Below are positions 27,329 through 30,360 of a DNA stretch of 64,000 bases, piece by piece; positions within the stretch are counted from its first letter, which is position 1, and each line of letters starts with the position of its first letter. This DNA is from Candidatus Mycobacterium wuenschmannii. Its GTDB lineage: Bacteria > Actinomycetota > Actinomycetes > Mycobacteriales > Mycobacteriaceae. The position numbers were made by a program, and so were the translations under genes. Below the pieces are notes generated by a model that was given only the letters and a program-made list of their open reading frames with translations, made no database searches and was not told the DNA's origin. Location of the stretch: NCBI RefSeq assembly GCF_030252325.1, contig NZ_CP126981.1:1860001-1924000 (forward strand). The letters are read 5' to 3'.

Positions 27329-28603
27329 TCAGGAGTCAGCTAAGTTCCGGCCGCGCGCCAGTGCCGCATTCGTCCGCTGATGCCCCAGCGACTCGTAGCC
27401 GATCACCACCACCGCCGGCGCCGCCATCACCACCAAGAGGCACACCGGGACGGACACACCCGCGGATGCGAGAGCCACGGCGCCGCCCAGCACGGAAAGC
27501 GCCACCACGACGATGACGGTGTAGAAGCCGTCCCAGGCCCGGGTCAGCAGCTGATAGGTCCCGTATACCGCCCCGACGTAGGCGCCGACCGGAACGGCAA
27601 CCGCAAGCACCGTAGCCACCGGGTCGAGCGCGGAGTGGTGCTGGATGGCGTCCGCGGCGGCGTGCAGTCCGGCGCCGGTGGCCACGATCGAGCCGAACAC
27701 CGCGATGTGCAGGTAGCCATACCCGAACGAACGCTCGCGGTGGTCGTGCAGGAGATGCGCCGACGGCACCACGAAGTACACCCACCACAGCCCGAAGGTC
27801 AGACCGGTCCCGGCGACCGCCACCAGCGCTGCATCGGTGGTCCAACCGTGCTCGGCGACCATCGCCGACAGCGACGCAACCGTTCCCACCACGCCCTCGC
27901 CGAGCGCGATGATCGTCAACAACCCGTTGCGCTCGGCGATGTGATGCGCGTGCCAAGGCGTGCCGCCCTTGTGTTTCTCGGCGATCAGCGGGCCGCTGAC
28001 CTCGATGGCCACCATCAGCGCGAACAGCACGAACGTGACGCCGACCGTGGTGTTGACGACGGCGATCGCGATCCAGCCGATCTGCGCGACGGTGATGGTC
28101 GCCGCGTACGTCAGGCATGCCGACTTACGGGCCGGGTCCTGGCTGGCGGCCCGCAGCCACTGGATCACCATGGCCACCCGCATCACGACATAGCCGCCGA
28201 CCAGGACCCGGTTGTCGACGTGGGCTCCGTCCGCGATCGAGCTGAACACCTGCGGAATGCCCAAGGCCAGCACCAGGACGCCGACCATCTGCAGCATCGT
28301 CGTCAGCCGGTACACCCAGTCGTCGGTGTCGTAGGCCGAGGCGAACCAGCTGAAATTGATCCACGCCCAGCACACCGAGAAGGTCGCGAAGGTGAAGCTG
28401 ATCAGCCCGGACTCGACGTGGCCGGCGGCCAGGGAGTGCGCAAACTGCGCGGCGGCGACGCCGAAGGCGATGACGAAGGTCAGGTCGAACAGCAGCTCGA
28501 GTGGGGTGGCGACCCGATTCGACTCGTGCGGGTCGCGCCCCGACATGCGACGCAGCCGGTGGGTCCGCACCTCGTGGGTGTGGTGGCTTCCAGGTTCACT
28601 CAC
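27329..28603 (-). CDS. LtrA-family integral membrane protein
   Basis: A 424-residue protein with about 10-12 hydrophobic segments and the low-temperature-requirement A signatures ATPLELLFDLTFVIAFG near the N terminus and HHIAERNGLLTIIALGEGVV in the middle. The biochemical role of LtrA proteins is not known. The GTG at 28603 was chosen because GGGGGAAAA lies about 8 nt upstream. An in-frame TTG at 28627 is less likely. It is divergent from the pseudokinase gene. Confidence 0.85.
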   Translation of the reverse strand: MSEPGSHHTHEVRTHRLRRMSGRDPHESNRVATPLELLFDLTFVIAFGVAAAQFAHSLAAGHVESGLISFTFATFSVCWAWINFSWFASAYDTDDWVYRLTTMLQMVGVLVLALGIPQVFSSIADGAHVDNRVLVGGYVVMRVAMVIQWLRAASQDPARKSACLTYAATITVAQIGWIAIAVVNTTVGVTFVLFALMVAIEVSGPLIAEKHKGGTPWHAHHIAERNGLLTIIALGEGVVGTVASLSAMVAEHGWTTDAALVAVAGTGLTFGLWWVYFVVPSAHLLHDHRERSFGYGYLHIAVFGSIVATGAGLHAAADAIQHHSALDPVATVLAVAVPVGAYVGAVYGTYQLLTRAWDGFYTVIVVVALSVLGGAVALASAGVSVPVCLLVVMAAPAVVVIGYESLGHQRTNAALARGRNLADS

Positions 28604-28675
28604 CCAAATATTTTCCCCCGGTCTCAATTGAGTGACCGCTTAATACCGAGACCGAGAACGATGCGCGGCAGTCTG

Positions 28676-28687: not shown

Positions 28688-30100
28688 ATGCCGCTGGTCA
28701 TGGGAGCGACGGCCGCTGGATTCAACATCGTTCGGCAGCTCGGATACGAGGAGTTCGGCGAGATCTACGTCGCCGAGCACCCGCGGCTCCCCCGTCAGCA
28801 GGTCCTTCACCTGATCCCCGCCGAGACCTCACTCGACCTGGACTACCGGATCCGGTTCAACGAGGAGTCCGACCAGGCGGCCACGCTGTGGCACCCGAAC
28901 ATCGCCGGCCTGACCGACCGCGGCGAATTCGAGGGCCAGCTCTGGATCTCCACCGAATACATCGAGGGCTCCGACGCGGCCGAAGTGCTCGGCGACGGTC
29001 ACCTCGACGGCATGCCGCCGCGGATGGTCATCGAGATCGTGTCGGCGATCGCCGACGCGCTGGACTACGCGCACGATCGCGGGATCCTGCACCGCCACGT
29101 GAATCCGGGCAACATCCTGATCAGCAACGCGGCCGCGGATCGACGACGAATCGCGTTGACCGGCTTTGGTGTAGCGCGACCCGAGGGTGCGCACAACACA
29201 CTGACGCGCGCCGGGATGTTCATCGGGACCGCCGGTTACACCGCGCCCGAACAGCTGATGGGCGAGGAGATCGACGGCCGGATCGACCAGTACGCTCTGG
29301 CGGCCACCGCTTTTCACCTGTTGACCGGCGCTCCGCCGTTCGCGCACTTCAATCCGTCGGTCGTGGTCAACCGCCAACTCAACGACCGGCCACCCCGGCC
29401 GAGCGAGATCCGGCCCGACCTGACGGACTTCGACGCGATCTTCGCCCGCGCGCTCTCGTCCGATCCGGTCGACAGGTTCCGGCGCTGCCGCGACTTCGCC
29501 AAGGCTCTCGAATCGACGGGCGGCACCCGCTCGCACATTCGCGCCACCTCTGAGGAGCGGGCTGCGTCCATTTTCCGCGAGGCAACCGAGAACGGCAACG
29601 GGGCGACCGCGGCGTTCGTGGCAACGCCGAAGGCGGCGGACCACGAGCCGACGTCCGCCGTGCCGACGACCGCCGTGCCGACGACCGCAGCCCCGAATGG
29701 CCGCTCGCACAACCACATTGACCAGGCCACCGCAGTCGCCGCTGCACCTGCCGCGCCGCCGGCCCCCGAGGAATTCGACGAACTCGACGACGAGTACGAC
29801 GACTACCTCGACGACGACGACGACGAATACGACGACGAAGCCGCGGAGGCCCGCAAGCGGCGCCTGAAGCACTCCGCCGCAATCGGCGGCGTGATCGTGG
29901 TCGTTCTGATCGCCTGGTTCGCCGGCGTCAAGGCCCTGCGATCGGCGTCGCAGCCCGAAGACACGCAGAGCACCGTCGAGACCACGTCGAACGAGCCTGC
30001 CTCCCCGTCGCCGTCGTTCGTCGCGCCGGCGCCGATCGTCGTCGCCCCGCCTCCGCCGCCCCCGGTCATTCCCCGCCGCCGGCGGCCACCACACCGGTGA
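28688..30100 (+). CDS. Membrane-anchored PknB-like pseudokinase (reading frame broken in tail)
   Basis: A 470-residue open frame. Residues 13-270 have the fold signature of mycobacterial Ser/Thr kinases (EHPRLPR, YIEGSDAAEVL, GTAGYTAPEQL), but the catalytic residues are gone. The glycine loop is GYEEFG, the ATP-binding Lys is His41, the HRD Asp is His137, HRDxK Lys is Asn139, and the DFG Asp is Gly159. Asn142 and APE remain. An Asp/Glu-rich stretch (about 360-385) precedes one membrane span (near 397-415) and a Pro-rich exterior. The frame ends in an odd RRRRPPHR, while the natural-looking Thr/Pro tail continues in another frame (30073-30360). Likely role: a non-catalytic membrane signalling scaffold. 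The partner is unknown. Confidence 0.85.
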   Translation: MPLVMGATAAGFNIVRQLGYEEFGEIYVAEHPRLPRQQVLHLIPAETSLDLDYRIRFNEESDQAATLWHPNIAGLTDRGEFEGQLWISTEYIEGSDAAEVLGDGHLDGMPPRMVIEIVSAIADALDYAHDRGILHRHVNPGNILISNAAADRRRIALTGFGVARPEGAHNTLTRAGMFIGTAGYTAPEQLMGEEIDGRIDQYALAATAFHLLTGAPPFAHFNPSVVVNRQLNDRPPRPSEIRPDLTDFDAIFARALSSDPVDRFRRCRDFAKALESTGGTRSHIRATSEERAASIFREATENGNGATAAFVATPKAADHEPTSAVPTTAVPTTAAPNGRSHNHIDQATAVAAAPAAPPAPEEFDELDDEYDDYLDDDDDEYDDEAAEARKRRLKHSAAIGGVIVVVLIAWFAGVKALRSASQPEDTQSTVETTSNEPASPSPSFVAPAPIVVAPPPPPPVIPRRRRPPHR

Positions 30101-30360
30101 TCACCACGACGGTGCCGGCCACGACCAAGGCTCCGGTCGCCACCACACCGGCGCAGAGCACCCAACCGCAGACCACCGTGGCGAAACCGCCGAAGCCGGC
30201 GACCACCACCCCGTCTGGGCCGAACGTGCTCGACACCCGGCCGGCCGTCGGTATGCCCTGCGGCCCAGAGGGTTCCGTCGCCGTCTCCAACTCGGGCGCA
30301 CCGGTCACCTGCGTGGGCACGCCGGGCGGGTCCGCCTGGCAACCGCCGGGCGCCGGCTGA
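30064..30360 (+). pseudogene. Out-of-frame extracellular tail of the pseudokinase
   Basis: In this frame the sequence reads SPPPAATTPVITTTVPATTK and ends in a small two-cysteine segment (GMPCGPEG ... VTCVGTPGG), exactly what would continue the Pro-rich exterior of the preceding frame. Adding a single C in the run at 30071-30074 would join the two. It may be a real 1-bp deletion, a homopolymer sequencing error or a -1 slippage site. Its own candidate start (GTG 30097) has no ribosome binding site. Confidence 0.65.

Follow-up and report, generated by a model that had tools for sequence, protein, structure and literature searches.

A membrane-anchored pseudokinase of PknF type beside the mycobacterial fas gene that probably works as a signalling partner

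What is a receptor kinase kept for when its catalytic residues are gone? The question is raised by a gene beside fas in the genome of Candidatus Mycobacterium wuenschmannii, which encodes a protein with the layout of a membrane receptor kinase. According to passages of a 2025 review, bacterial pseudokinases are largely unexplored by experiment (PMC12599244). We analysed a stretch of 64,000 nucleotides that carries this gene, here called the window, and compared the encoded protein with its relatives in the genus. The features of the locus are collected in Table 1.

The protein matched the Pfam family Pkinase (PF00069) over residues 13-248 with an E of 1.3e-25 and 90.7 bits (cut-off 31.7), which is the weakest of the 14 Pkinase matches in its own genome. 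When ranked against solved chains, PknF came first (7naa, E 3.7e-98), followed by PknI (about 1e-62; 5xka, 6.7e-63) and PknB (~2e-39). Chain 7NAA is described in one report as M. tuberculosis PknF (PMC13147305). The protein had been predicted to have the layout of a PknB-type receptor kinase; the receptor layout stands, whereas the closest type is PknF and not PknB. Two intact PknF-like kinases of the same genome (L009 and L011) are ~49% identical to it.

The beta-3 Lys41 is replaced by His, the HRD Asp137 by His and the DFG Asp159 by Gly, exactly as the original prediction had it. The catalytic-loop Lys139 and the middle Gly21 of the glycine loop are likewise lost; this loop retains its first and third Gly and is degraded, as had been claimed. 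The motif EHPRLPR, the end of the activation segment GTAGYTAPEQ, one membrane span and the acidic juxtamembrane run were all found, and the activation segment is full-length. Asn142 had been named as the only survivor of the active site, but the alpha-C Glu60 and the Phe160 and Gly161 of the DFG motif are retained as well. Asn142 itself is absent from two of the three other proteins that lack all three key residues. We also looked for an intact Lys/Asp/Asp set elsewhere in the chain. It is absent by sequence, as residues 1-270 contain no Lys, and the same region of the relative in genome G030 is also free of Lys; a displaced Lys was thereby rejected. For a protein to be classed as a pseudokinase, it is generally enough that Lys, the HRD Asp or the DFG Asp is missing, and this one lacks all three. 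An active Hanks-type Ser/Thr kinase of the PknF type agrees with the fold match, but not with the state of these three residues. The domain match and the triple replacement together bear out a membrane-anchored pseudokinase beside fas.

Table 1. Features of the fas-linked pseudokinase locus, in positions of the window
Feature	Position	Strand	Basis
fas, type I fatty acid synthase, neighbour, ORF of 3080 aa	17615..26857	-	own sequence and label of the original prediction
ltrA-type gene between fas and the pseudokinase gene, divergent from the latter	27329..28627	-	Pfam PF06772
Pseudokinase gene, one-frame reading, 470 aa and stop	28688..30100	+	ORF; aligned start MPL shared with all 12 other dead fas-slot proteins
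Kinase-like domain, PknF type, residues 1-275	28688..29512	+	Pfam PF00069; 7naa PknF, E 3.7e-98
Degraded glycine loop LGYEEFGE	28739..28762	+	
Leu34, the same in all 13 dead and all 28 intact rows	28787..28789	+	
His41 in place of the beta-3 Lys	28808..28810	+	
Alpha-C Glu60, kept	28865..28867	+	
Asp77, the same in all 13 dead and all 28 intact rows	28916..28918	+	
Catalytic loop HRHVNPGN, with His137 replacing Asp, Asn139 replacing Lys, and Asn142 retained	29090..29113	+	
TGFG, with Gly159 replacing the DFG Asp	29159..29170	+	
End of activation segment GTAGYTAPEQ, kept	29225..29254	+	
Acidic juxtamembrane run, residues 361-387, then a basic stretch ahead of the span	29768..29848	+	
Single membrane span, residues 397-417 (about)	29876..29938	+	hydropathy
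Frame-change stretch; stop of the first frame at 30098-30100	30047..30100	+	third-position GC by frame; continuous frame of relatives
Conserved Cys-pair exterior end, out of frame with the kinase domain, stop at 30358-30360	30229..30360	+	

The exterior part of the protein is affected by a change of the coding frame. The third-position GC content, analysed by frame, switches near 30.05 kb. In frame, the exterior of the window protein comprises 56 residues with 27% Pro and 7% Thr. Of the Pro/Thr-rich exterior that had been predicted, the Pro part was thus confirmed and the Thr part was not. A Pro/Thr-rich stretch and a 43-residue end with a pair of cysteines follow downstream in another frame than the kinase domain. 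In the same way, the gene end predicted at 30360 does not apply to the frame of the kinase domain, which stops at 30100, but is the stop of the Cys-pair end in the other frame. One continuous frame encodes the corresponding protein of G030 and of G189. The Cys-pair end occurs in all 12 other dead proteins of the fas slot, each time in one frame with the kinase domain, whereas the frame change removes it from the in-frame product of the window. The displaced end gave a pN/pS of 0.16 against G030 and 0.23 against G189 (42-43 codons) and still looks coding and selected. Since the relatives are unbroken and the displaced end is still coding-like, the frame switch, which was read in a single assembly, is either a very recent break or a sequencing error. 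The Cys-pair end had no second match in its own genome at E up to 0.01, and a scan for promoters and terminators found none.

To its left, the pseudokinase gene is flanked by the ltrA-type gene and then by fas. To its right lie genes for a CrtC-like lipocalin, an aldehyde dehydrogenase, a FAS1-dehydratase-like protein, MaoC, a SnoaL-like protein and an AMP-binding, acyl-CoA-ligase-like protein. In the window, the CrtC-like gene (low end 30367) directly follows the pseudokinase gene. Two related loci differ in having a gene for a MerR-type regulator and one for a Rieske oxygenase between the kinase and the CrtC-like gene (L086:9489-11595 and L087:10404-12453). In L248 from genome G282, the acyl-CoA ligase, ltrA and SnoaL-like neighbours matched in broken pieces only, which suggests assembly errors or decay.

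The distribution of the gene was followed with fas as the landmark. With its first 300 residues as the query, fas was matched in 144 of 148 genomes of the genus. The slot survey covered these 144 genomes with 139 fetched stretches and 5 genomes already in the set; 8 of the 139 stretches fell short of 5 kb, and one of the 8 consisted of just one base. In 7 of the 144 (G000, the window's own genome, G030, G060, G071, G094, G117 and G016), the region upstream of fas contained a PknF-like kinase with an identity of 50% or more; the one in G016 belongs to another lineage in the careful tree described below. G086 and G101 have a distant kinase, 32% identical, ~8.4 kb away. Among 396 genomes of the genus, eight more with a kinase in the fas slot were found (G189, G387, G148, G282, G319, G379, G320 and G186). 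The loci at which catalytic residues were read in this search were selected for their rank, for a match that extended beyond the membrane span or for their tandem position.

Dead kinases occupy the fas slot in at least 13 Mycobacterium genomes. The HRD Asp is lost in all 13 and the DFG Asp is replaced in 6 of them. G094 has an intact kinase only. In G071, G117, G319 and G379, a dead copy that keeps Lys and the DFG Asp stands in tandem with an intact sister; the dead copy of G117 has lost the DFG Phe. G060 also keeps Lys and the DFG Asp but not the DFG Phe; in G320 and G186, Lys is replaced by Arg and the DFG Phe is missing; G148 and G282 carry GFG with Lys kept. All three residues are lost in G387, G189, G030 and the window, where residue 137 is His or Tyr and residue 41 His or Gln; no intact sister is found in the fas slot of this triple-dead clade. 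Extant species therefore span the stages from an intact kinase alone, through an intact kinase with a dead twin, to a dead kinase alone that lacks one, two or three of the key residues. Because the triple loss recurs in four genomes, the window included, and the loss of the HRD Asp in 13, the replacements are not due to chance.

To place these proteins, a tree of 90 kinase rows was calculated by a quick method, and 44 kinase domains chosen from these were used for a careful tree. The 90 rows were compiled without L013, L014, the distant L058-L060, L063 and L064, matches under 200 residues, and copies of rows already present (L015, L016, L065-L069 and L072). In the careful tree, the 18 fas-slot kinases grouped together with a support of 98/95, the 13 dead ones with 100/98, the six kinases with GFG with 100/98 and the four triple-dead ones with 100/100. 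The window protein is placed among the PknF-like kinases in both trees, and the fas-slot proteins form a clade of their own, apart from the other PknF-like rows in the searched genomes. A scattered, convergent origin of the dead kinases was rejected by the tree, which has all 13 in one clade. The least number of changes among the 18 fas-slot kinases was one each for the HRD Asp, the DFG Asp and the catalytic-loop Lys, and two each for the beta-3 Lys and the DFG Phe. Parsimony on these residues showed a reconstructed order of loss with the HRD Asp first, then the DFG Asp and then Lys.

In the free tree, the neighbour of the dead clade was the intact kinase of G094 (99/96) and not the intact tandem sisters. 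When the five intact fas-slot kinases were forced into one clade, this was not rejected (p-AU 0.133). With the G094 kinase beside the dead clade, one tandem duplication is no more than a possible origin of both types. In a tree of the neighbouring aldehyde dehydrogenase, also made by the quick method, the 14 genomes of the fas-slot kinase lineage formed one clade with a support of 90. The 35 other rows were separate, and their slots gave no such kinase. This pattern would fit a single gain of the fas-slot kinase followed by vertical descent.

Constraint on the proteins was estimated as dN/dS by a simple NG86 count, for which the window protein was trimmed ahead of the frame change. For the kinase domain of the triple-dead clade, where dS is high (0.59-1.00), dN/dS was 0.087-0.196 in six pairs, and the values for the window were 0.087 against G030 and 0.119 against G189. 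The values for the linker of the same proteins were 0.256-0.773. Six species pairs of the tandem clade gave 0.075-0.131 for the dead domain and 0.044-0.103 for the intact sister. The dead domain was above the intact sister in five of the six pairs, and its constraint nearly equals that of the live twin. Constraint was weaker in G320, G186 and G060 (0.242-0.286). Judged by these counts, the dead domain is under purifying selection, and simple pseudogene status of the whole lineage was rejected.

The changes are also unevenly placed along the domain. We took 95 positions that agree in no fewer than 27 of the 28 intact kinase rows selected, and presume 13 of these positions to be nucleotide-binding or catalytic. 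In all four triple-dead proteins, 7 of these 13 sites are changed, compared to 10 of the 82 others (Fisher p 0.0016); in the window alone, the numbers are 7 of 13 and 14 of 82 (p 0.0072). This concentration indicates that the losses fell mainly on the active site and that the rest was largely kept. We are highly confident that the dead fas-slot proteins represent a pseudokinase lineage maintained by selection.

A stretch of the activation segment, NTLTRAGMFIGTAGYTAPEQ, is identical in the window, G030 and G189, and a RAT motif just C-terminal to the kinase domain is common to all four triple-dead proteins. In the dead proteins of the tandem clade, the activation loop is shortened and the Thr at position 181 is lost. 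The dead kinases at L249, L250, L087 and L088 in this clade have acidic linker motifs with Thr, such as WEDTEYDD and WHDTEFDD, some of them repeated. These motifs are possible candidates for phosphosites at which an FHA protein docks. The intact tandem sister at L087:7114-8688 carries an exterior Rv1352/Rv1906c domain (NF053833) that was not found in the dead copy. By eye, the two have a similar Cys-pair motif.

For the function, we propose that the protein is a dead receptor kinase derived from PknF, maintained by selection and acting as a non-catalytic dimer partner, and we give this explanation as a whole a probability of about 0.5. An intact receptor kinase in the fas slot would have been duplicated. 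The copy would then have been disabled stepwise at the HRD Asp, the DFG Asp and Lys, with selection continuing to preserve its fold and topology. The retained N-lobe face of the dead kinase would then pair in the membrane with a live PknF-type kinase, and the pairing would tune the activation of the live kinase. Wherever the tandem sister is still present, it would be the cognate partner; in the lineage of the window, this part would fall to another PknF-type kinase of the cell, for which L009 and L011 are candidates. The Cys-pair end would be the sensing part. We infer the duplication as the source, the lack of phosphotransfer, the dimerisation, the choice of the partner and the sensing by the Cys-pair end.

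Since a live twin is adjacent in four genomes, a non-catalytic dimer partner is the simplest role. The original prediction had offered binding either to a true kinase or to an FHA protein, and the intact tandem sister favours the former. Pairing with a live PknF-type kinase through the N-lobe face we put forward tentatively, at slightly less than even odds. Leu34 and Asp77, which we take to be the counterparts of Leu33 and Asp76 in the back-to-back dimer of PknB (PknB numbering), are equally invariant in the 28 intact rows, so that their retention may reflect the fold only. The shortened activation loop of the dead proteins in the tandem clade speaks against one universal mechanism. In the review's description, the MviN pseudokinase dimerises back to back, and the Leu/Asp positions that it uses have analogues in other bacterial Ser/Thr kinases (PMC12599244). 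For PknB, one report holds dimerisation to be a prerequisite for phosphorylation of the activation loop (PMC6428115), and a further one takes activation to require dimerisation (PMC6333020). A bolder version, which we consider rather unlikely, is that the intact kinase of the fas slot and its dead tandem twin would be an obligate hetero-receptor, a bacterial counterpart of pseudo-receptor pairing. The dead subunit in the window's lineage would have outlived its twin and been re-assigned to gate another kinase, possibly coupling the state of the envelope to the fatty acid synthase. If true, an obligate hetero-receptor locus would preserve in living species the full ladder from enzyme to non-enzyme.

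Other explanations have to be weighed against the dimer partner. The protein could be a phospho-scaffold like MviN, in which a live kinase phosphorylates a Thr of the activation segment or the juxtamembrane region and an FHA protein docks there, so that an envelope signal is relayed without catalysis. The identity of NTLTRAGMFIGTAGYTAPEQ in three genomes, the RAT motif behind the domain and the precedent of MviN with FhaA in the review (PMC12599244) are in line with such a scaffold. However, the linker evolves fast overall, and the dead proteins of the tandem clade are devoid of part of the activation loop and of Thr 181, so we regard it as possible but doubtful. Early decay would concern the window copy, which would have become a pseudogene when the exterior frame change abolished the function of the lineage here. 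The in-frame product indeed stops short of the pair of cysteines present in all 12 other dead proteins, but both the domain and the displaced end look selected and the single assembly may contain a sequencing error. We consider this decay unlikely.

Retention or gain of another nucleotide-dependent activity, as in SelO (AMPylation) or SidJ (glutamylation), is very improbable. The fold family is kept, and His is found at residue 41 in three and at residue 137 in three of the four triple-dead proteins, with both in the window and in G189. The alternation with Gln and Tyr at these positions is unlike a new conserved active site, and Lys is kept in SelO and SidJ as the review describes them (PMC12599244), whereas the domain here has none. 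A still active protein kinase with displaced catalytic residues has a known model in the WNK-type displacement of Lys (PMC12599244). Residues 1-270 contain no Lys in the window and G030, all 13 dead fas-slot proteins have another residue for the HRD Asp, and 6 of them have one for the DFG Asp as well, so that an active kinase is hardly probable.

Taken together, our results suggest that the pseudokinase probably works as a signalling partner rather than as an enzyme. With living intermediates and a constrained dead domain, the conversion of a kinase into a signalling partner could be tested directly. The same species also offer a way to find out if live mycobacterial kinases are tuned by a dead receptor kinase, as the dimer-partner explanation would have it.

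Compared with the known systems, PknF (Rv1746; 7naa) is the closest solved relative over residues 1-274 and has the same N-terminus. Its order of kinase domain, membrane span and exterior is, we assume, the same as in the window protein. The PknF chain keeps Lys, the HRD Asp and the DFG Asp, whereas the window protein has none of them. PknI (Rv2914c; 5xka, 5m06-5m09) has a PknF-like domain and shares with the window protein the VNP instead of VKP in the catalytic loop. In a crystal-structure study, PknI was reportedly described as pseudokinase-like. In chain 5xka, Lys, the HRD Asp and the DFG Asp are kept and the activation segment is shortened. The PknI-type dimerisation domain (PknI/Rv2253, NF052447) is present in a PknI-like protein of the window's genome, which lies outside the fas-slot clade in the careful tree, and is absent from the window protein and from G030. 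Membership in the PknI group was rejected for lack of this domain. The PknI-like protein itself (L089:4719-6479; G000:C1 near 1.141 Mb) has HRG for HRD and a degraded glycine loop, and its gene lies close to genes of an ESX locus, EspG at a distance of 1.6 kb and EccD at 2.7 kb. Its relative L062 of M. simiae, which is near it in the tree, has HRA.

The pseudokinase of MviN/MurJ (Rv3910; ActPs3) is likewise membrane-linked, mycobacterial and without all three motifs. It is described as fused to MurJ with a deleted activation loop (PMC12599244), whereas the window protein is unfused with a full-length segment. The MviN of the same genome and the window protein matched at the level of noise only (phmmer E 0.029 in a one-sequence search, -0.5 bits). 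Kinship to MviN was rejected, as no sequence similarity is detectable and the loop is not deleted, and the predicted separation from the MviN architecture thus holds.

The review further lists the actinobacterial pseudokinases ActPs1 and ActPs2, the latter commonly with a membrane span, and in its Table 1 DLHK as an example of a bacterial pseudokinase with GFG (PMC12599244). ActPs2 is described with Lys to Arg, HRD Asp to Asn, a deletion of DFG and insertions of 32 and 250 aa (PMC12599244); the window protein with His41, His137, GFG and no such insertions was rejected as a member by these published motifs. As in ActPs1, all three catalytic residues are substituted. ActPs1 proteins often have a PQQ domain and have lost the G-helix (PMC12599244); a C-terminal PQQ domain, present in many members but not universal, had no Pfam match in the window protein at E up to 1. 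DLHK, judged by the motif of the one example in the review's table, keeps HRD together with GFG (PMC12599244) and was rejected by this motif, since the window protein has HRH. MviN is the only M. tuberculosis entry in Table 1 of the review, and the names PknF and PknI occur 0 times in its main text (PMC12599244). A search of open-licence PMC papers, as far as titles and the openings of abstracts show, turned up no fas-linked pseudokinase. In conclusion, what is new here is a fas-linked pseudokinase lineage, derived from PknF and with a putative function in signalling, of which a live twin and the intermediate stages are extant.
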